Assembly (NCBI GenBank): GCA_937931785.1
Contig: CALHAX010000026.1
Location: 1-47,532 of the forward strand
Length of the DNA stretch: 47,532 nucleotides
Direction: 5' to 3'
Origin: an uncultured Hyphomicrobiaceae bacterium
GTDB taxonomy: Bacteria; Pseudomonadota; Alphaproteobacteria; Rhizobiales; CALHAX01
Below are positions 2 through 11,925 of this stretch, piece after piece. The notes beneath the pieces were generated by a model that saw only the letters and a program-made list of their open reading frames with translations, did no database searches and was not told the DNA's origin. Positions within the stretch are counted from its first letter, which is position 1. Each line of letters opens with the position of its first letter. The translations under genes and the position numbers were made by a program.

Positions 2-952
2 CCAACGGGCACCAACGCAGTTGAAGCAGCATTGAAGATCGCCCGCAAGGTTACGGGGCGCTCCAATGTGATCAGTTTCACGAACGGCTTTCACGGCGTA
101 TCGCTCGGATCATTGGCGTTGACCGGAAATAAATTCCTGCGGAAAGCCGCCGGAGTGGAATTACCTGGCGCAACACAGATGCCGTATGATGGCTATCTTG
201 GTGACAGTGGTGATACGATCGCATTTATCGATCGGATGCTATCCGACGCCTCAAGCGGCATGGATCTTCCAGCCGCAATGATCGTGGAAACGGTCCAGGG
301 CGAAGGAGGTCTCAACGCCGCAAGCATAGAGTGGCTCAAAAGTCTCCGCCAGCTGTGCGATAATCATGACATTCTTCTGATCGTCGATGATATTCAGGCG
401 GGTTGCGGTCGCACCGGTACCTTCTTCAGTTTCGAGCCTGCCGGTATCGTACCGGACATCGTGACACTATCAAAGTCGTTGTCCGGTTACGGCGTTCCAT
501 TTTCTGTGGTTCTCATGAAGCCCGAACACGACGTCTGGGCACCCGGAGAACACAACGGAACGTTTCGTGGCAACAACCACGCTTTCGTCACCGCAACCGC
601 TGCACTCGAAACATATTGGGCAACACCGGATTTCGAAACCGATATCGCCATGAAGTCAGATATCCTCGAAGACAGTCTCCAGAAGTTGGTTAATACGTTC
701 CCGGAAGATCTTGTACGTATCAAGGGGCGCGGAATGATGCGCGGTATTGAATGTGCCGATCCGACCCGTGCAGCTGCAATAACATCAACTGCATTTCAAA
801 ATGGTTTGATCATTGAACGCGCCGGCCCACGTGATGAGATTATCAAGTGTCTTATGGCATTGACCATCACCCAGGAACAATTAGTTGAAGGCCTTGATGT
901 ACTTTCGCTTTGCGTGGATAAAGAATTGCAGTCAGGATCGAAATCATGCTGA
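2..952 (+). CDS. ectB: Diaminobutyrate-2-oxoglutarate aminotransferase, 5' end missing
   Basis: PLP-dependent class III aminotransferase of the EctB family, which converts L-aspartate semialdehyde and an amino donor into L-2,4-diaminobutyrate (Dab). The frame is open to the first base and reads PTGTNAVEAALKIAR at the very start, so about 110 N-terminal residues lie outside the window; the first internal start-like codon (TTG at 32) is not the real start. Visible family motifs are SFTNGFHG, MPYDGYLG, ETVQGEGG, the PLP-pocket segment LLIVDDIQAGCGRTG and the Schiff-base lysine in LSKSLSGYG, followed by NGTFRG. The stop overlaps the next gene by 7 nt (ATGCTGA), implying translational coupling. 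In ectoine operons ectB is followed by ectC; here it is followed by a poly-amino-acid synthetase, which suggests Dab is made as its monomer. Family call is firm; the pathway role is inferred. Confidence 0.92.
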   Translation, partial: PTGTNAVEAALKIARKVTGRSNVISFTNGFHGVSLGSLALTGNKFLRKAAGVELPGATQMPYDGYLGDSGDTIAFIDRMLSDASSGMDLPAAMIVETVQGEGGLNAASIEWLKSLRQLCDNHDILLIVDDIQAGCGRTGTFFSFEPAGIVPDIVTLSKSLSGYGVPFSVVLMKPEHDVWAPGEHNGTFRGNNHAFVTATAALETYWATPDFETDIAMKSDILEDSLQKLVNTFPEDLVRIKGRGMMRGIECADPTRAAAITSTAFQNGLIIERAGPRDEIIKCLMALTITQEQLVEGLDVLSLCVDKELQSGSKSC

Positions 953-3900
953 CTTGCAACACACATGATAACACGCCGCGCTGGCAACCAGGCGAACGTC
1001 TCGACCACCTGTTTGAGGCGCGTTGCGACGCTTTGCACGCTCAAAAGGATGCGGACACGACAGCCGTTGTCACAGATACGGGCACGCTCAGCTTCCGTGA
1101 TCTCGACAATCGTGCCAATCAGGTGGCACGTCATCTGACGAATGAAGGTGTCAGTGCTGGCGATCGCGTTGGCTTGATGTTCGATAAATCGGCAGAGTCC
1201 TACATCGCTCTTCTGGCTGTTCTGAAAATCAACGCAGCCTATGTACCGCTTGATGGCGCCTTTCCAAACGATCGCATTGCGTTCATTCTTGAAGATGCGG
1301 ACGTCAAGGTTCTCGTTGCACAATCCGTGTTTCGCGAAAAACTTGAGAGCTGCGCAATACGTCAGATCTTCATTGACGCAGATACGACTGCTATCGACGC
1401 CTTGCCATCCCACCGTTTGGGCGAAGAGGAAAAATCTGCTCCAAAGAGTGAACTCAGTTATATCATCTACACATCGGGGACGACGGGAAACCCCAAAGGC
1501 GTCGCGATCGATCACGCAAGCATTTGTAATTTTGTTCGTGTTGCTGCCGAGGTCTACGGCATCACCTCAAACGATCGCGTTTACCAGGGCATGACGATCG
1601 CGTTCGACTTCTCGGTCGAAGAACTGTGGGTGCCGCTTCTTGCGGGGGCAGCGCTCGTACCTAGCAAGGCAGGAACAAGTCTTGTTGGCGACGAACTCGC
1701 TGATTTTCTCTCCAGTCGAAAGATCAGTGTCCTTTGCTGTGTGCCAACCTTGCTTGCAACCATCGAGGTTGATCTTCCCGATCTGAAAATTCTCGTGTTG
1801 TCCGGCGAAGCGTGCCCGCAAAATCTCGTGACGCGTTGGCACAAACCAGGTCGCACGCTTTTGAACGCCTATGGCCCGACCGAGGCGACCGTCACTGCGA
1901 CGTTGACAGAACTGTACCCCGAAAAACCAGTTACGATCGGTGTGCCACTCCCAACGTATACAATTGTCATTCTGGATGAAAATGAGGCCAACATTGTCTC
2001 TGAAGGCGCAATGGGTGAAATCGGCATCGCCGGCATCGGGCTGGCAGATGGTTACCTCAACCGTTCAGATCTCACATCGGAAAAGTTCATTCCAGATTTC
2101 CTGGACCTGCCACACAATCCGTCGAAACGCATTTATCGGACCGGTGATCTCGGATGCATCAATGCCGATGGTGAAATTGAGTTCCATGGTCGGATCGACA
2201 CGCAGGTCAAAGTGCGCGGTTACCGGATCGAACTGACTGAAATCGAGTCAGTCCTGATGCAGGTTCCAGGTGTCACGCAAGCCGTTGTCGATGCCTATAC
2301 GTTTGATGATGGCGCAAAGGAACTGGTCGCTTACTACTCCGTCTCGAAGGATTGTGTAGCTGTATGCCAAACCGAAATGCGAGAGACTTTGCGCAAGCAG
2401 GTGCCCTCTTACATGGTACCCAGCTACTTTGAAGAGTTGAACGTTATCCCTCTGACAACCAGCAACAAGGCTGATCGCAAGGCGCTACCAGCTCCAAGCG
2501 GACGGCGTAGTGCGGGGAATGCGACAAATCATGTTGCTCCGCAAACGGAAGCTGAGAAACTTCTCGCAGGCCTCCTCACTGATATCATGCAGATCGATCG
2601 TGTCTCGATTGACGATCACTTCTTCCAGGATCTTGGTGCGCACTCGATGTTGATGGCGCAATTCTCCTCGAAAGTCCGGAAAACAAACGGTCTGTCGGCG
2701 GTGTCGATGATGGACATTTATCTCAACCCCAGCGTTCGCCAATTGGCTGCGCACATCGAGGGTATGTCAGACGAGGCTATCGTGACTGTCGGGGCGGAAG
2801 CGACAGAGCTGCATACACCATCCAATCTCGCGTATTACGGCTGTGGGGCCATGCAGTCGCTCTTCCTGCTCGCTTATGGAGTGTTCGGGTTCTGGATTCT
2901 GGCGATGGGCATCAAATGGTCCTACGCCGCAATAGCCAATCCGTTCGAAGCATACGTCCGCATTGTGGCGTTCGCAGTCGGCGCAACAGGTTTGTTTACC
3001 GCCATTCCCGTAGCCGCGAAATGGCTTCTGGTCGGTCGCTGGACAGCAGATTCGTTCCCGGTCTGGAGTGCAAAATACTTCCGCTTCTGGCTCGTGCGTA
3101 CACTCGTGCAGAGCGCACCGCCGGTTGCATTCAAGGGCGGTCCATTGTTCAACGTTTACCTCCGACTTCTCGGCGCAAAGATTGGTCGCGGTACTGTCAT
3201 TCATGCACGTCAGGTTCCGGTTGCAACCGATTTGTTCAGCGTGGGTGACAATACGCTTCTGCAAACGGATGCCGTGATCACAGGCTATGGTGCGCATGCC
3301 AATACGCTTGCCATTGGATCAGTCGAGATTGGCAATGACGTCTATGTCGGCCATGGCAGCGTTGTCGATAGCGATACTGTCATGGAAGACGGCGCGCAGC
3401 TCGGCCACGCCTCATCGCTTCAGAAGGGGCAGCGTGCAGAAGCTGATACCAGCTACCACGGTTCGCCTGCTGTACAAACGCAGACGAAGTTCTGCACGGT
3501 GGACGGTATGGAATGCACAGGCCTGCGTCGCGGCATCTACACAACTGTGCAAATTGTCTGGTCGATGCTGATCGCCTTGCCGCTCGGCCTGCTGATTGCG
3601 TACCAGCTTTTCCCGATCGCCCAAGGCATGATTTCGGGTCATGCCGCCGCTGACACAAGCGTGGTATCGCTTGCTGGAAGATTGGCACTGGTCTCGGTTG
3701 CGCTATTCTCCGCAGGCCTCGTTTTCGGTTTGATCCGTGTCGCGGTCCTGCCCCGCCTTCTGAACCGCTTCCTCAAGCAAGAGAAAATTTATGTCCTCTT
3801 CGGCGTTCATCACTTCATTCACCAAACTGTTTCAGCCGCGAGCAATTCCAGGTTCTTCAACATCATCTTTGGCGATAGCTCGATGATCGTCCATTACCTG

Positions 3901-5133
3901 AAGTGGATCGGTTGGGAACTGAATACGGTCGAACAGAGTGGGTCGAACTTCGGCACGAACCAGAAGCATGATAATCCTTTCCTGTGCGATATTGGTTCAG
4001 GCACGATGGTGTCCGATGGTCTTGCGATGATCAACACAGAGATGTCCGCATCATCCTTTCGCCTCTGCAAGACATCGATTGGTGACAACAACTACCTGGG
4101 CAACAACATCCAGTTCCCGTCAAACGCAACAACGGGTCGGAATTGCCTGTTGGGCACCAAGGTGATGATCCCGATTGATGGCGTTATACGTGAAAACGTT
4201 GGCCTGCTCGGATCGCCAGCCTTCGAGATCCCACGTGCCGTTGAGCGGGACGTCGACATCAAGTCCAGCATGGACGACGAAACGCGCAGCCTGCGTCTGC
4301 GTCAGAAGAATCGACACAATGCCGTCACCGCACTTGCGTTCCTCGCGATGGTTTGGGGCATGATATTTGTCGCTCTGCTCGTCGGTTACACGGCACTGAT
4401 GGCATACCCGGTCTACGGTTTGTTACCACTCATGTTGGCGGGCATCGGCTTGTCTCTCGCATCGATCGGTGTGTTGGCATTCGCCGAACGTGCAGCATTC
4501 GGCACCGGTAAACTACGCCCACGCACGGTCTCCATTCACGATCCATATTTCTGGAAACACGAGCGCTATTGGAAGTTCGGCGAAACCCCGTTGATGTCTC
4601 TCTTCAAGGGTACGCCGATGAAAAATCTTGTCACAAGCCTGCTCGGCGTGAAAATGGGGGCCAAGGTCTTTGATGATGGTTGCCAATTCATCGACAAGGG
4701 TTTGATCGAGATCGGCGATTTCGCGAACCTGAACGAAGGTGCAACAATCCAGGGGCATTCGCTGGAAGAAGGTGCATTCAAGTCCGACTACATCAAGATT
4801 GGTCGTGGAAGCACACTCGGTGCAGCAGCTTTCGTGCATTACGGTGTTACCGTCGAAGAAAACGTTTTCATCATGCCGGATTGTTTCGTCATGAAAGGCG
4901 AAACACTCGAAGCCAACTCGACCTGGCTTGGCAACCCGGCCAAGGCGATCAATCAGGCCAAGGTGCAGAATGTGACCGAGACGGAAAAGGACACAGTCAG
5001 CCAGAAAACCGTGATATGTCAGACGGTGTTTTCCAACGAGCACATTACCATCTCTCGTGCCGTTCCAACCGGCAAAGTAAAGCAACCGGGCAAACACACT
5101 GCTGAGCCCCACATACACGACAAGGCAGCGTGA
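946..5133 (+). CDS. Pls/PosA-type single-module NRPS: homopoly(amino acid) synthetase
   Basis: Membrane-bound synthetase of 1395 residues resembling epsilon-poly-lysine synthetase (Pls) and PosA. An adenylation domain fills about residues 15-515: core A3 YIIYTSGTTGNPKG near 172, A5 NAYGPTEAT near 307, A7 YRTGDLG near 397, A8 KVRGYRIE, A10 NKADRKALP. A carrier domain follows with LGAHSM and the pantetheinyl Ser567. There is no C, E or TE domain. The rest alternates three soluble segments (about 715-860, 940-1100 and 1190-1345, with left-handed-helix-like hexapeptide stretches) with three pairs of hydrophobic helices starting near 636, 865 and 1125, i.e. six membrane spans as in Pls. In that family the tandem C-terminal domains form isopeptide bonds repeatedly to make a cationic polymer. 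The start at 946 overlaps ectB and the stop overlaps the PPTase gene. Dab as monomer is inferred from ectB; lysine, ornithine or diaminopropionate are not excluded. Confidence 0.9.
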   Translation: MLTCNTHDNTPRWQPGERLDHLFEARCDALHAQKDADTTAVVTDTGTLSFRDLDNRANQVARHLTNEGVSAGDRVGLMFDKSAESYIALLAVLKINAAYVPLDGAFPNDRIAFILEDADVKVLVAQSVFREKLESCAIRQIFIDADTTAIDALPSHRLGEEEKSAPKSELSYIIYTSGTTGNPKGVAIDHASICNFVRVAAEVYGITSNDRVYQGMTIAFDFSVEELWVPLLAGAALVPSKAGTSLVGDELADFLSSRKISVLCCVPTLLATIEVDLPDLKILVLSGEACPQNLVTRWHKPGRTLLNAYGPTEATVTATLTELYPEKPVTIGVPLPTYTIVILDENEANIVSEGAMGEIGIAGIGLADGYLNRSDLTSEKFIPDFLDLPHNPSKRIYRTGDLGCINADGEIEFHGRIDTQVKVRGYRIELTEIESVLMQVPGVTQAVVDAYTFDDGAKELVAYYSVSKDCVAVCQTEMRETLRKQVPSYMVPSYFEELNVIPLTTSNKADRKALPAPSGRRSAGNATNHVAPQTEAEKLLAGLLTDIMQIDRVSIDDHFFQDLGAHSMLMAQFSSKVRKTNGLSAVSMMDIYLNPSVRQLAAHIEGMSDEAIVTVGAEATELHTPSNLAYYGCGAMQSLFLLAYGVFGFWILAMGIKWSYAAIANPFEAYVRIVAFAVGATGLFTAIPVAAKWLLVGRWTADSFPVWSAKYFRFWLVRTLVQSAPPVAFKGGPLFNVYLRLLGAKIGRGTVIHARQVPVATDLFSVGDNTLLQTDAVITGYGAHANTLAIGSVEIGNDVYVGHGSVVDSDTVMEDGAQLGHASSLQKGQRAEADTSYHGSPAVQTQTKFCTVDGMECTGLRRGIYTTVQIVWSMLIALPLGLLIAYQLFPIAQGMISGHAAADTSVVSLAGRLALVSVALFSAGLVFGLIRVAVLPRLLNRFLKQEKIYVLFGVHHFIHQTVSAASNSRFFNIIFGDSSMIVHYLKWIGWELNTVEQSGSNFGTNQKHDNPFLCDIGSGTMVSDGLAMINTEMSASSFRLCKTSIGDNNYLGNNIQFPSNATTGRNCLLGTKVMIPIDGVIRENVGLLGSPAFEIPRAVERDVDIKSSMDDETRSLRLRQKNRHNAVTALAFLAMVWGMIFVALLVGYTALMAYPVYGLLPLMLAGIGLSLASIGVLAFAERAAFGTGKLRPRTVSIHDPYFWKHERYWKFGETPLMSLFKGTPMKNLVTSLLGVKMGAKVFDDGCQFIDKGLIEIGDFANLNEGATIQGHSLEEGAFKSDYIKIGRGSTLGAAAFVHYGVTVEENVFIMPDCFVMKGETLEANSTWLGNPAKAINQAKVQNVTETEKDTVSQKTVICQTVFSNEHITISRAVPTGKVKQPGKHTAEPHIHDKAA

Positions 5134-5867
5134 GCTTCAGGCACCTCGGCATGATTGTTCAGGAACGCATCGGTAGTGTCACTGTGTGGGCAGCAACGCT
5201 GGCCGATGCGCTTCATCTTGATGCCTTTGCAGCCGTGAGTGTTGATGAACTTGAGCGGGCAAAAGAATACAACTCTCTTGCTGATCGCGACCGGTTTCTC
5301 TCCGGTCGCACGCTGCTCCGACATGCATTGTCCCAAACCGTTGACCACACGACAGCAGAAGATGAGTGGACCTTTGAAATTGATCGCTATGGCAAACCAT
5401 CAGTCGCTGGCCACCTTCCGCAACTCGGTTTCAGTATTTCGCATACAGGGAATTGTGCCACGGTCGCCGTCAGCTGCCATGCGGCTGTTGGTGTTGATAT
5501 CGAAGCACGCGAACGTAACGATAAGCAGGAGATCATTTGGGAGTGTTTGACTCCCTGCGAGGCGCGTGACCTCAGCCGCGTCGCGGAACACCAGCAATGG
5601 GACAGGTTTCTCAGCTACTGGACAGCCAAGGAAGCCTGCGCAAAAGCACTCGGCCTCGGAGTTGCAATACCGTTCGACGCAATCGGGATCACGCTTGGTG
5701 CATCACCGACCGCGACGGTTCACTCCAGTTGTTTTACAGATGCAGAATTGATACTGGCGCTCACGACCCTGGAAGTTGACGCGACGGGCTATCGCCTGGG
5801 CGTGGTGACACATGAACAGAAGCGGAGGCTGCAAGCTTCAGAACCGTATCCCGTTCCATCATCGTGA
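5130..5867 (+). CDS. Sfp-type 4'-phosphopantetheinyl transferase
   Basis: Transfers 4'-phosphopantetheine from CoA to a carrier-protein serine, converting it from apo to holo form. The 245-residue length is typical of the Sfp branch. Hallmarks are the Mg/CoA-binding segment GVDIEARERN near residue 120 and the signature WTAKEACAKALGLG near 165, plus the upstream FSISHTGNCA block. The GTG start at 5130 sits in a GTGA overlap with the stop of the synthetase gene, so it is almost surely co-translated and serves that enzyme's Ser567. The gene converges on, and overlaps by 9 nt, the S41-like gene on the other strand. Dedicated activation within a three-gene operon argues that the polymer pathway is self-contained. 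Confidence 0.93.
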   Translation: MSFRHLGMIVQERIGSVTVWAATLADALHLDAFAAVSVDELERAKEYNSLADRDRFLSGRTLLRHALSQTVDHTTAEDEWTFEIDRYGKPSVAGHLPQLGFSISHTGNCATVAVSCHAAVGVDIEARERNDKQEIIWECLTPCEARDLSRVAEHQQWDRFLSYWTAKEACAKALGLGVAIPFDAIGITLGASPTATVHSSCFTDAELILALTTLEVDATGYRLGVVTHEQKRRLQASEPYPVPSS

Positions 5868-7262
5868 AAGAATACGGTCAACGAATTGTCTGGCGGCCAA
5901 CTTGTGCTTGTCTTTCGCTTTCTTACGCTTGCGTACATCGGCAAAGATATCGGGTTGAATTCCTTTCCCCTCCCATAACGTTTTCCGGACATCAAGGTAA
6001 ACTTCATTGGACAAGCTGAGACGCCAACCATTCGGAAGGCGTTTTTCCAGCATGTCCGACAAGATACCCTCAGTCGCATCGCCCACATGTGTCACATTCG
6101 GCAAGGCGCGCAATGCCAGCGTGAAAATCTCCGCCGCACTCGCAGTCTTATGGCTGGTGATGAGAAAAATGGGACCTGTATACCTCTTCCCTTTGCCAGG
6201 CTCGATATAGATCGGCTGTGGCCGCTCGCCTTCGCCATCTCCTGCGTATTTGTAATAGCCAAGCGTGCGTTCAGCGACGAAGCGGCTTGCGATACGACGC
6301 GCAAATGCGTCATCTCCACCCCCGTTCATGCTGACATCGATGATCACGGCTCTGGCGTCCTCGAAAAGCTCCATCGCACGGTCCATCGCATTGTCGATGG
6401 CCTTGCGTCCGCCGCCTGACATCGAACGAATGCTGAGTACGCCAATCTCTTCGTCGATCAATCCAAATCGAATGGCCTTTCCAGCGCCTGTCTCGACGTC
6501 ATCATCGACCAGCTTTTCTCCAATGCCACGCATCCAGTATGATGCCGTATTGCTAGCCTTGCGATCAAGTTTGAAACGCTTCAGGCGATCGGACGCCCGG
6601 GGCCGACCCGCATCAAAACTTCGTTTTGTACCGTTGATCCGTGCCGTCAACGTTACATGTCCGTCGTTAATATTGGAGAGAAGACTTTTTATGATTTTGA
6701 ACAGTTCTTTATCCGAGAGATCGTTGTTGACCTGGTTCCGGTGCATCTCGACAACGCGTGCCCAGTCCACATCCCGGACAGAGAAGAATGCATAGTGCGT
6801 GTTGAAGATTTCAACCAGGGCGTCGAACACGGCAACGGGATGATCCGCCGGTTTCGACAAACACTGCGCGGGCAGCGCGTCAATCTTGTCGAAGGTATAG
6901 GCGTAATTACTGTCATCTGAGGTGAGGTGAATGGTTTGGCCGTTGTTTGAGAACGCGGCCGTTCGGCCAAGATCGTTCAGTTCGGTAGACCCTCGACGTT
7001 GCTCCATGCAGAAGGATTCCGCCACATCGTAGACGCGCGGCTTGCCCTTTCTGAATTCGAGAAGCCAGCCGTACCCCCTTGAACGCCATACACCGCTCAA
7101 CTCTGTCCGTACCGAGGTCGTCATGACGTCTCCCGTGAAAAGTATGGAGCCGACCTCAACAAGGGGTGAATCCACGGGTGGCTTTGTTGAAGTGGCGCGT
7201 TCACTCGTCAGCCATACCAGCAGAACAGCGCCCAATGCCAAGGTTGTGATACGTCGTTTCAA
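5859..7262 (-). CDS. Exported S41-family peptidase-like protein
   Basis: A 467-residue protein with a Lys/Arg-rich N-terminus and hydrophobic stretch (about residues 4-18) fitting a signal peptide, so probably periplasmic. The C-terminal half carries the S41 (tail-specific/tricorn/IRBP-like) fold: strand AVIIDVSMNGGGD near 290-302, then FLITSHKTASAAEIF with the likely nucleophile Ser375, then VGDATEGI and RLSLSNEVYLD. The lysine used by classical Tsp/CtpA proteases about 25 residues after the serine is Ile400 here, so it belongs to the tricorn/IRBP-like subgroup or may be inactive. No PDZ domain was recognised. The first 200 residues are not assigned. It is convergent with the PPTase gene and shares its last 9 nt; no functional link is shown. 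Confidence 0.75.
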   Translation of the reverse strand: MKRRITTLALGAVLLVWLTSERATSTKPPVDSPLVEVGSILFTGDVMTTSVRTELSGVWRSRGYGWLLEFRKGKPRVYDVAESFCMEQRRGSTELNDLGRTAAFSNNGQTIHLTSDDSNYAYTFDKIDALPAQCLSKPADHPVAVFDALVEIFNTHYAFFSVRDVDWARVVEMHRNQVNNDLSDKELFKIIKSLLSNINDGHVTLTARINGTKRSFDAGRPRASDRLKRFKLDRKASNTASYWMRGIGEKLVDDDVETGAGKAIRFGLIDEEIGVLSIRSMSGGGRKAIDNAMDRAMELFEDARAVIIDVSMNGGGDDAFARRIASRFVAERTLGYYKYAGDGEGERPQPIYIEPGKGKRYTGPIFLITSHKTASAAEIFTLALRALPNVTHVGDATEGILSDMLEKRLPNGWRLSLSNEVYLDVRKTLWEGKGIQPDIFADVRKRKKAKDKHKLAARQFVDRILSR

Positions 7263-9150: not shown

Positions 9151-10176
9151 TTAGTCGGCAAACCTGACGCCATGACTCTGTGTCCGTAATCTGGGATCGT
9201 CTGACTTTACGAGTGCTGACTGTCCACCCAGGAGTTCAAAACACCGTTCCAGGGTTTCCCGTTCAAGCCGCATCATGGCCTCATGAGTGTAGAAGGTCAG
9301 GTGCGGGAGCATAATGACGTTGGGACGATTGAAGAGGCTGCTAAGTGGATGGCCGACCGTTGAAAGTGGTTCCTGACTGTAGACATCCAGTCCTGCACCA
9401 GCGATCTGTCCGTTGTCGAGCGCGGCGAGCAGCGCGCTTTCAACCACCAGCGCTCCACGGGACACATTGATGAAATAGGCCGATGATTTCATGGCTTTGA
9501 ATTCGCCGTGCCCAATGAGATGTCTTGTTTCGGAATTCAGCACGCAATGCACCGAAACAAAATCACTCGTGCGCAGCATCGCTGAAAGGTCGTCGTATTT
9601 TTCGACACCAGCCGCTTTCATATCATCTACAGAAACGTTGGGATCGTAGCCGATAACCCGAGCTCGAAAACCCGCACCAGCCATGCGGGCCATACTTTTG
9701 CCAATACGGCCAACGCCGACTAGTCCCACCGTTTTTTCAGCGATATCTGTGCCGAGCCAGGCAGATGTTGGCCAGATCCAGCCGCTGTCGCACATTTCGC
9801 GATGCATGGGTGTCAGCTTCTTGGCCAATGCAATCATCATCGCAAATGCGCCTTCCGCAACAGTTTCTTCGGCGTATTCCGGGATGTTGACGACAGGTAT
9901 TTTTCTCTGCTTTGCCGCTTCGATATCAATCGCATCAATGCCAACGCCGTACTTGACGATACCCTTCAGTCTTGCGGCACTATTGATCACGCGTGCGGTA
10001 ATCGGCGTGTAACACATCAACAGAAGATCGGCATCTTCAACCTCACGGGCAAGCTTGTCCTCACTCACACCATCCGGCAGCAATACCATCTGCGCACCAG
10101 CTTTCATCAGCTCCGCGTCGATGTGGGGGCATTCGAGTTCCTGATCGGTTCGCACAATTTTCATGCCAGTGCTCAT
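9151..10176 (-). CDS. D-isomer-specific 2-hydroxyacid dehydrogenase family protein
   Basis: NAD(P)-dependent oxidoreductase of 341 residues. It has the Rossmann signature VGLVGVGRIGKSMAR near residue 150, the catalytic arginine in FINVSRGALV, a glutamate in DVYSQEP and the catalytic histidine in MLPHLTFYT, in the normal order for this family. Its ATG overlaps the stop of the PbfA-like gene by 4 nt (ATGA), so the two are translationally coupled. The coupling implies a substrate related to the phosphonate pathway, for example a hydroxy- or oxo-phosphonate intermediate, but this is inference; the sequence does not separate it from phosphoglycerate- or glyoxylate-reductase-like enzymes. The C-terminal 20 residues extend beyond the conserved core. 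Confidence 0.85.
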   Translation of the reverse strand: MSTGMKIVRTDQELECPHIDAELMKAGAQMVLLPDGVSEDKLAREVEDADLLLMCYTPITARVINSAARLKGIVKYGVGIDAIDIEAAKQRKIPVVNIPEYAEETVAEGAFAMMIALAKKLTPMHREMCDSGWIWPTSAWLGTDIAEKTVGLVGVGRIGKSMARMAGAGFRARVIGYDPNVSVDDMKAAGVEKYDDLSAMLRTSDFVSVHCVLNSETRHLIGHGEFKAMKSSAYFINVSRGALVVESALLAALDNGQIAGAGLDVYSQEPLSTVGHPLSSLFNRPNVIMLPHLTFYTHEAMMRLERETLERCFELLGGQSALVKSDDPRLRTQSHGVRFAD

Positions 10177-11576
10177 GCGAGACCGAGACTTGTTCCGGCC
10201 TCGTTCAGGCTGGAGTCAATGATGTCGAGTGCGTCATCCATTTGTTCTTCGGTCAAGATGAGGGGAGGTGTGAACGTTAAAACGTTCCCCATGGTGATCT
10301 TGAACGATAGCCCCTTGTCGAGGCACCTGTAAAAAACGTCTTCCGCAAGATCATTGGCAGGCGTCTTGTCGTCTCGACTTTCGACCAATTCGATACCAAT
10401 CAAAAGTCCGCGTCCGCGCACATCTCCAATCGTCTTGTGCCGGGTCTTCATGTCGTTAAGGCGCGCAATGGCATGTGCGCCAACAGTTGCAGCATTTTCC
10501 ACAAGACCTTCGTCTTCGATAATCTCGATCGTTGTCAGGCCGGCCCGTGCCGTCACAGGATTTTTTTCGTGTGTATAGTGACCGAAGGCATAATCGGCGG
10601 CAACATCCAGTCCCGGGCGAGTGAGAGTGGCAGCGAGTGGTAGAATGCCGCCGCCCAGTGCTTTGCCCATAACCAGAATATCCGGAACGACATCGTCATG
10701 ATCGCAGGCGAACATGCGTCCAGTTTTGCCCAGGCCTGTCGGAATCTCGTCAAAGATCAGGAGTGCGCCATGCGCGTCACAGGCCTTGCGAACTTCAGCC
10801 CAGAAACCTGGCGGGGGAATGTAGGGAACAGCTCGCGCCGGTTCGGCGATGACAGCGGCAACATCACCTTCCTTCTCCAGAACATAACGGATAAAATTTG
10901 CGCACGTCATCTTGCAGAGGTCAAGTTGCGGTGCACCGTCACGATCCGGATAACCGTAAGGGCAACGATAGCAAGCAAACGGCGCGACGTGTGACGCTCC
11001 TGTCAACAGTGGGCCAATGACATGCGATCGAAACAAGGCCTCTCCACCAACCGATGCGGCACCAAACCCGGCCCCGTGAAAAGCGTCCCAGAACGATATC
11101 GTTTTATGTCGACCGGTTGCCGCGCGTGCAATTTTGAGCGCCACCTCCACGGCATCGGATCCGCCCGTGGTGAACAAAACCTTGGACAAGTCACCTGGAG
11201 CAATATCGGTGAGTTTTCGCGCCAACGCGGTTGCCGGTTCGCATGCAAAGCGACGTGGTGCAAATGGCAAGTCATCCATCTGCTTGGTGATTGCCGCTTT
11301 GAGACGGGGATGTCCGTAGCCAATGTGATGAACGTTATTGCCATGAAAGTCGAGGTATCGACGCCCCTGCGTATCCTCGATATACGCGCCCTCTGCCTTG
11401 GCAATAACCGACATGCAGGGCGTCGAGACCGACTGATGCAGGAAATGCTGTGCGTCCTCTGCAATCAGATTACGGGTGTTTTTGTCGTGCGTGCGTTGCG
11501 CCCAGGCAATCCGGCGTTGTGAGGTGTTGATTTCACCTTCGGACTGCAATTCGGATGCGCCGATGTCCCCGTCCAT
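10173..11576 (-). CDS. pbfA: PbfA-like PLP enzyme ((R)-1-hydroxy-AEP ammonia-lyase)
   Basis: Class III aminotransferase-fold protein of 467 residues. PLP features are VLFTTGGSDAVEVALK (phosphate-binding turn), the aspartate in LLIFDEIPTGLGKTG and the lysine in VMGKALGGGILP. In phosphonate clusters, family members annotated as aspartate aminotransferases have been shown to be PbfA, an ammonia-lyase turning (R)-1-hydroxy-2-aminoethylphosphonate into phosphonoacetaldehyde. That would feed PhnY/PhnA encoded just across the LysR gene. The start at 11576 (MDGDIGASEL) is preferred over a GTG/ATG-like codon 36 nt upstream because GAGG lies 5 nt before it. The next gene overlaps by 4 nt. The specific activity is inferred from context; an AEP:2-oxoacid transaminase is the main alternative. 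Confidence 0.75.
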   Translation of the reverse strand: MDGDIGASELQSEGEINTSQRRIAWAQRTHDKNTRNLIAEDAQHFLHQSVSTPCMSVIAKAEGAYIEDTQGRRYLDFHGNNVHHIGYGHPRLKAAITKQMDDLPFAPRRFACEPATALARKLTDIAPGDLSKVLFTTGGSDAVEVALKIARAATGRHKTISFWDAFHGAGFGAASVGGEALFRSHVIGPLLTGASHVAPFACYRCPYGYPDRDGAPQLDLCKMTCANFIRYVLEKEGDVAAVIAEPARAVPYIPPPGFWAEVRKACDAHGALLIFDEIPTGLGKTGRMFACDHDDVVPDILVMGKALGGGILPLAATLTRPGLDVAADYAFGHYTHEKNPVTARAGLTTIEIIEDEGLVENAATVGAHAIARLNDMKTRHKTIGDVRGRGLLIGIELVESRDDKTPANDLAEDVFYRCLDKGLSFKITMGNVLTFTPPLILTEEQMDDALDIIDSSLNEAGTSLGLA

Positions 11577-11925
11577 TTTGCCTCGGTTCGTTCGTGCTGC
11601 TGTCCAGCGCATATTGGATCAGACTTGAACCGGAGAAACAAGTCACGGAGATTCTGACACCTTGAACGGATGGTTCAAGAGGCATTGCAACTGCGAAGGT
11701 ATGCTGGCCGTACGGATTTTCATCCATGCCAACGACGCGTATGTTTCCACACTCTGAGAACACATGCCACATGCCACATGCCACATGCCATTCTGACGAA
11801 CAGCATCCCCCCCTCAACGCAAGCCTGAAGAAAACGGTAGACGGGCAAAACAGAGATTTACGATACAGTTGCCTGCACGAAAGAGGTGTTGGGAATGCGG
11901 ACCAAATGATTTCGCGGGTACTGGC
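11577..11925. other. Intergenic spacer between pbfA-like and LysR genes
   Basis: 349 nt without a credible gene. Both flanking genes are on the minus strand, so this holds the promoter and leader of the pbfA-like operon. A 7-nt tandem repeat lies near its middle. No clear terminator hairpin for the LysR gene was found. Confidence 0.6.
11761..11790. repeat. Short tandem repeat, 4 x CACATGC
   Basis: Four perfect head-to-tail copies of CACATGC followed by CA. It lies about 185 bp upstream of the pbfA-like start codon, outside any gene. Such a tract can vary by strand slippage and, here, could change promoter spacing; that effect is speculative. Confidence 0.9.

Follow-up and report, generated by a model that had tools for sequence, protein, structure and literature searches.

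What could a gene for diaminobutyrate--2-oxoglutarate transaminase (EctB), an enzyme chiefly familiar from ectoine operons, be doing in overlap with a gene for a polymerising amino acid synthetase? This question is raised by the start of contig CALHAX010000026.1 (C26) of an uncultured Hyphomicrobiaceae bacterium. The stretch analysed here (the window, 47,532 nt) comprises bases 1-47532 of C26, from the contig's very first base, and belongs to a 3.66-Mb draft genome that is 99.3% complete. The locus is probably a dedicated poly-diaminobutyrate (poly-Dab) operon, whose predicted product is gamma-poly-Dab, probably of L configuration, since the operon contains no racemase gene. We infer the monomer, linkage, stereochemistry, length, export and biological role of this polymer from the genes.

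Three open reading frames (ORFs) of the + strand, 2-952, 946-5133 and 5130-5867, were confirmed, overlapping by 7 nt and then by 4 nt. Their features are as follows.

2-952, + strand: 3' part of ectB (316 of 433 residues), diaminobutyrate--2-oxoglutarate transaminase (NF006733, TIGR02407)
946-5133, + strand: pls, Pls/PosA-type single-module synthetase of 1395 residues, with an adenylation (A) domain, a peptidyl carrier (PCP) domain and a membrane polymerising region (TIGR02353)
1036-2487, + strand: A domain, residues 31-514 (PF00501, PF13193, TIGR01733)
2563-2757, + strand: carrier (PP-binding) domain, residues 540-604, with Ser567 in LGAHS, codon 2644-2646 (PF00550)
2842-4941, + strand: C-terminal polymerising region, residues 633-1332 (TIGR02353, hydropathy spans, AlphaFold2)
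4756-4758, + strand: codon of His1271, candidate catalytic base (conservation, profile alignment)
5130-5867, + strand: Sfp/HetI-type 4'-phosphopantetheinyl transferase (PPTase), its GTG start overlapping the pls stop (PF01648, PF22624)

An earlier note on this DNA had claimed the two overlaps, the three gene families and a synthetase with six membrane spans and three C-terminal domains. The ORF coordinates bear out the first, profile searches the second (NF006733/TIGR02407 for ectB, TIGR02353 for the Pls-like synthetase, PF01648 for the PPTase), and hydropathy together with an AlphaFold2 model the third. The note saw only 316 of the 433 residues of EctB, since the contig edge interrupts ectB, and it could not see a 95-residue ORF on another contig that is probably the first gene of the set.

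In profile searches the C-terminal region of the synthetase scores 627.2 bits against the equivalog-domain model TIGR02353 (cut-off 423.1), and this match sits after the AMP-binding and PP-binding domains. Pfam (E <= 0.001) finds only AMP-binding, AMP-binding_C, PP-binding and Hexapep, that is, one A domain and one carrier domain, with no classical condensation or thioesterase domain. The PPTase reaches 56.6 bits against PF01648 (cut-off 25), while its match to NF042922 stays under the cut-off. The part of EctB within the window scores 484.6 bits against NF006733 (cut-off 438). Its remainder lies at 3-374 of contig C28 (- strand), where the EctB model also finds the missing N-terminal part (3-335, - strand) in a genome profile search. 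An exact overlap of 24 nt links the end of C28 to the window start, and the joined protein of 433 residues scores 650.4 bits against the EctB equivalog model TIGR02407 (cut-off 552.2); its pyridoxal phosphate (PLP) lysine is presumably Lys275, placed by motif.

The synthesis could proceed in the following manner. EctB would form L-Dab from aspartate semialdehyde and glutamate, and Ser567 of the synthetase would receive its phosphopantetheine from the PPTase. The A domain would adenylate Dab and then thioesterify it onto the carrier. Iterative linkage of Dab via the side-chain amine, giving gamma-poly-Dab, would be performed by the membrane-bound C-terminal region, consisting of three fused beta-helix units, with His1271 as a candidate base in the condensation.

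Which monomer is used could be judged from the adenylation pocket, whose ten-letter code reads DFECVSAVTK (D221, F222, E225, C264, V284, S286, A308, V316, T317 and K508). The code positions were located by motif, following the PheA numbering. As a check of this placement, two other members of the order read DMEHNGTVTK and one reads DGESVSVVNK. The published codes DMEHNGTVSK and DGESISVVNK are one letter off these reads (PMC10522769). In PosA, the delta-poly-L-ornithine synthetase of Acinetobacter baumannii, Asp and Glu at code positions 1 and 3 bind the two amines (PMC10522769), and the window synthetase keeps both (D221 and E225). The earlier note had proposed a cationic isopeptide polymer, perhaps gamma-poly-Dab, and had regarded activation of a non-basic amino acid as evidence against it; a non-basic monomer is unlikely, because the Asp/Glu pair is retained, and the proposed polymer, a predicted product, is supported.

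Code position 2 is Phe in synthetases of poly-diaminopropionate (PDAP) and poly-diaminobutyrate (PDAB), Met in ornithine and Ala in lysine synthetases (PMC10522769). Phe at this position in the window (F222) agrees with poly-Dab synthetases of the type of PddA, the Pls-like synthetase encoded with the Dab transaminase PddC in the pddA-pddD poly-D-Dab cluster of Streptoalloteichus hindustanus (PMC8225329), and does not exclude 2,3-diaminopropionate (Dap). A Dap polymer or a mixed one, with EctB meeting some other need for Dab, is therefore to be considered. The PDAP A domain of Streptomyces albulus activates Dab too, more weakly than Dap (PMC4668381), and four relatives carry a diaminopropionate ammonia-lyase-like PLP enzyme gene (NF006058) directly after pls:

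L052, 6493-7635, - strand
L060, 1-990, - strand
L082, 12330-13514, + strand
L088, 12245-13414, + strand

Against Dap stands the monomer gene of the operon itself, which makes Dab. No Dap-forming pair was noticed by eye among the ORFs to 9 kb or on C28 (the search for Dap genes did not extend genome-wide), and no lyase-like gene is found among the ORFs beside the window operon. A Dap or mixed polymer is accordingly improbable. The lyase-like gene itself follows pls in 4/4 non-redundant synthetases with Pro at code position 4; the NF006058 cut-off is reached in L052, L082 and L088, and in L060, where the stretch end cuts the frame, the match is below it. This enzyme might perform a monomer-recycling or racemase-like step.

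The second feature shared with PddA-type systems is a Dab transaminase in the cluster, here EctB overlapping pls. Like the pdd cluster, the window combines a single-module Pls-like synthetase with a Dab--2-oxoglutarate transaminase gene, and both use translational coupling (PMC8225329); the likeness is drawn from the published description, not from the PddA and PddC sequences; PMC8117764 names WP_083959783 as the accession of the D-polymer synthetase. The window operon differs in having no adjoining pddB-like racemase gene, an in-operon PPTase and an alphaproteobacterial host; a further difference is that inspection by eye (window ORF list and C28) showed no neighbouring aspartate kinase. The known transaminase-linked system yields a D polymer (PMC8225329), and poly-D-Dab made with a racemase encoded elsewhere in the genome, a sub-case of the poly-Dab operon whose odds overlap with it, is a minor possibility. 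A whole-genome DapF search matched only C121, over the cut-off, and C51, below it, with nothing on C26 or C28. The match on C51 is a 388-residue DapF-like ORF (G000:C51:7328-8146, + strand; 49.9 and 41.2 bits, under the DapF cut-off), which could be a racemase. In the described clusters, by contrast, the PddB-type racemase gene is translationally coupled to the synthetase gene (pddB-pddA; PMC8225329), and no such gene is coupled to the synthetase here. Pls-like synthetases paired with a Dab transaminase are already on record, which trims the novelty that the earlier note had seen in an EctB-coupled Pls; the alphaproteobacterial setting of its claim stands.

How the polymer could be assembled is suggested by the C-terminal region. 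Hydropathy places six spans in three pairs (638-656 and 673-691; 867-885 and 916-934; 1129-1147 and 1162-1180), and two weaker stretches within the A domain. With three soluble segments, this is the arrangement of the Pls/PosA family, seen in both hydropathy and model. The AlphaFold2 model of residues 626-1342 (23 sequences; mean predicted local distance difference test, pLDDT, 86.7; predicted template modelling score, pTM, 0.87) consists of three repeats, each of a helix pair, short helices and a left-handed beta-helix. The closest solved structures are left-handed beta-helix (hexapeptide) acyltransferases: maltose O-acetyltransferase is the best Foldseek hit (E 5.3e-5), and VIA-align gives serine acetyltransferase with Z 16.1 and a root mean square deviation of 1.7 over 100 residues. 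Of 97 aligned Pls proteins, 96 have H at the position of His1271 and the remaining one a gap; no other histidine of the region is conserved in more than 83 of the 97. A profile alignment pairs His1271 with the THPL-motif histidine of hexapeptide-type galactoside and maltose O-acetyltransferases, which is the catalytic base in those enzymes. The polymerising region would act as a fused beta-helix acyltransferase, and His1271 is a testable candidate for a catalytic residue of this poorly understood region. A predicted beta-helix C-terminal fold has been published for PosA, and the window model agrees with it (PMC10522769).

The synthetase resembles PosA further in its A-PCP-six-span order and in Asp and Glu at code positions 1 and 3, and differs in its code, DFECVSAVTK against DMEHNGTVSK for ornithine (PMC10522769). 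Against the window C-terminal region, two members of the order whose code is PosA-like reach only 160 and 186 bits. The epsilon-poly-L-lysine Pls of Streptomyces albulus (PDB 7WEW, A domain) belongs to the same family, with an A-domain match at E 4.1e-78; lysine synthetases have Ala at code position 2, unlike the Phe of the window (PMC10522769).

Such an architecture could also activate Dab without homopolymerisation, in which case the product would be a Dab conjugate, for example on an envelope component, or only a short oligomer. PosA products in vitro are 7-12-mers (PMC10522769), the folds of the C-terminal region are common to acyltransferases in general, and an S41 peptidase and a porin accompany two Skermanella loci, consistent with an envelope role. 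However, A-PCP-six-span is the architecture of enzymes shown to make homopolymers, and no acceptor gene stands out, because no family besides Pls and EctB is common to more than 6 of the 29 compared neighbourhoods. An oligomer or conjugate appears unlikely.

The poly-Dab operon could be doubted on another ground, namely that ectB is the leftover of an ectoine operon lying beside pls by chance. EctB is best known from ectoine operons, and the joined protein scores above the cut-off of the ectoine EctB model. Whole-genome searches of the draft gave no EctC match; as a control, the EctC model matches 21/150 genomes of an order sample, 20 of them over the cut-off. For EctA the best match reaches 23.4 bits (cut-off 120.6) on other contigs, with none on C28, the contig that extends the locus upstream, where the earlier note had suggested looking for ectA and ectC; no control genome reached the EctA cut-off, so its absence leans on the model alone. 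The next-best EctB-model match beyond both ectB halves has 193.3 bits. As far as the draft can show, the genome appears to hold a single ectB and no ectoine pathway, and the complete ectoine operon that the earlier note had seen as contrary to its reading is absent from it, ectA and ectC not accompanying ectB. The leftover explanation was rejected, neither EctA nor EctC being over the cut-off; with the 7-nt overlap with pls and the recurrence of the ectB-pls pairing in other genomes also against it, it is disfavoured and highly improbable. The window EctB, which passes the equivalog model like an ectoine EctB, also differs from the latter in its place in a Pls-linked set of nine rows (Shimodaira-Hasegawa-like approximate likelihood ratio test, SH-aLRT, 98).

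The recurrence of this pairing was followed in 101 loci, taken as the best 80 of 209 from a genome scan plus 23 loci of the order, minus two duplicates (L085 and L136, which share contigs with L052 and L060). Five had no usable code (L048, L061, L072, L094, L106). EctB lies just upstream on the same strand in 10/12 loci with DFE and Ser at code position 6, overlapping pls or at a distance of <= ~1.2 kb; with the window, EctB-linked Ser-pocket loci are 11/13. Its frequency is 0/68 in the flanks of loci with DFE and Gly at position 6 (5 of them with <2 kb upstream) and 0/16 for other codes. In L072 EctB adjoins a split Pls frame, and in L063 (code DYECISLVSK) a class-III aminotransferase five genes upstream, at 46.5 bits to EctB, was not counted as EctB. 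L088 (Skermanella aerolata) has the Ser pocket without an adjoining EctB; a second Pls of that genome directly adjoins EctB, and EctC is lacking. Plasmids of Skermanella rosea and S. mucosa carry ectB-pls with the code DFECLSVVTK. A class sample has EctB at E <= 1e-120 in 21/289 genomes, yet EctB stands upstream in 10/12 loci with the same pocket, and the ectB-pls coupling is for this reason not chance. The Fisher p of 6e-12 for the association of pocket and EctB ignores kinship and is not used as evidence. As a pocket rule, S-A/V against G-T/S at code positions 6-7 could be offered.

EctC was over the cut-off in one of ten related whole genomes with this pocket class of Pls, Leisingera daeponensis, where a second EctB lies 39 nt ahead of that genome's EctC; another of the ten has an EctC match below the threshold (20.7 bits). 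Three additional records in this survey are plasmids only and have little weight. In the Pls tree (C-terminal region; a quick tree of 53 chosen rows, many near-alike Mesorhizobium rows omitted, and L049 and the outgroup flagged as long branches), Ser-pocket synthetases form a basal grade and Gly-pocket ones a single clade with support 100. In the EctB tree (41 rows; L037 and L039 omitted; 4/30 EctC loci with EctB in the flanks) the Pls-linked label requires at least three changes among EctC-linked EctBs, the Pls-linked groups being the nine rows including the window, three rows (SH-aLRT 96) and a pair (100). A phylum sample of 398 genomes added no further EctB-linked lineage: the 7 genomes at E <= 1e-100 are that of the window plus six from a single genus.

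From these data a broader reading may be proposed, tentatively and with some doubt: ectB-pls would be a poly-Dab module, assembled repeatedly in Gram-negatives that mostly lack ectoine genes and equipped with its own accessory parts. Its hosts would be Alphaproteobacteria and metagenome-assembled genomes (MAGs) labelled Thiotrichaceae and Planctomycetota. Among these parts would be an in-operon PPTase in some cases, a small domain that two relatives carry as a fusion to EctB, and an S41 peptidase of secreted type, serving to trim the polymer or to protect the producer. If this is true, 'ectB' in such genomes signals a polycation, not ectoine. In any case, ectoine synthesis should not be deduced from an annotated ectB where ectC is missing.

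A number of points weigh against the poly-Dab operon or its generality. The joining of C28 to C26 is based on the 24-nt overlap and an uninterrupted protein match. Phe at code position 2, reported also for the poly-Dap synthetase, occurs in 68/68 EctB-free sister loci and therefore does not discriminate Dab from Dap. The pocket changes once on the Pls tree, so the split of pocket and EctB is a single evolutionary event, not many; the three changes on the EctB tree could be gains or losses, this tree being quick and its outgroup long-branched. A 360-residue ORF separates ectB from pls in L074. L102 has the pocket with no EctB in its genome, its Pls starting 432 bases from the contig end, and L177 (a Paenarthrobacter plasmid, DFECLSVVTK) has no EctB on the record, the search having covered the plasmid and not the chromosome. 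Finally, G143 and G037, genomes of the same order (loci L052 and L060), carry EctC on other contigs.

Accessory genes are present in part of the Ser-pocket loci. A PPTase homologue directly follows Pls in L049, L070 and L071 and lies ~4.2 kb downstream in L052; no PPTase was found in the flanks of the other eight at the threshold used. In the window the operon is faced by the following gene.

5859-7262, - strand: S41-family peptidase, convergent, possible accessory (PF03572, 91.5 bits)

Among 111 loci searched, two duplicates included, S41 peptidase homologues (E <= 1e-4) occur only in the Ser-pocket loci L070, L071, L179, L192 and L102, the last partial at a contig end. The gene order in Skermanella rosea and S. 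mucosa is ectB, pls, hypothetical, S41 peptidase, porin. This peptidase may be an accessory for polymer trimming or protection.

Upstream, the gene set probably starts on C28 (locus L043) with the 95-residue ORF (393-680, - strand), whose stop lies 18 nt ahead of the ectB start; beyond it stands a divergent ORF, acyl-CoA ligase-like by eye. No Pfam family matches the 95-residue ORF above the cut-off. In L070 and L071, EctB bears an N-terminal extension similar to this ORF (E 1.7e-4 and 5e-5). With the small ORFs ahead of ectB in L091 and L093 the 95-residue ORF has a visible W-x-V-x-D...GG-x-F pattern in common, at E 0.19 and 0.076, two unrelated matches being equally good.

Before PosA, bacterial isopeptide polycations had been identified from actinomycetes; Pls/PosA family members occur in many phyla, Rhizobia included, and antibacterial or antifungal activity is known for other members of this group of polymers (PMC10522769). 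Leisingera sp. ANG1, a carrier of ectB-pls (L091), produced no zone of inhibition against any of seven marine bacteria (PMC7333567); if the operon was expressed there, this is a hint against a strong antibacterial role. Among the literature matches listed, no report was found of an alphaproteobacterial poly-Dab operon or of the ectB-pls-PPTase operon in Alphaproteobacteria. Apparently new are the occurrence across Alphaproteobacteria that mostly lack ectoine genes, the PPTase within the operon (4/13 loci), the S41 peptidase and the small domain. For making poly-Dab in a laboratory host, a compact operon that brings together monomer supply, polymerase and activator would be attractive.

Several observations were made in passing. 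L078 is a window-type Pls with EctB on a contig of a MAG labelled Planctomycetota, and L094 a window-type Pls in a MAG labelled Candidatus Nitrosocosmicus (an archaeon), with an 830-residue frame and a weak A-domain match. The Streptomyces plasmid loci L178 and L181 have annotated Pls/PosA proteins of ~850-910 residues, with the polymerising region and little or no A domain. A GNAT acetyltransferase gene follows the Gly-pocket, EctB-free Pls in L069 (12216-12680, + strand), L079, L084, L095, L127 and L194; L079 also has a nearby ORF of the same family as the histone-deacetylase-fold protein of L063. The window itself contains a further class-III aminotransferase-like ORF (10173-11612, - strand), unlike EctB, with 132 bits to TIGR02407.

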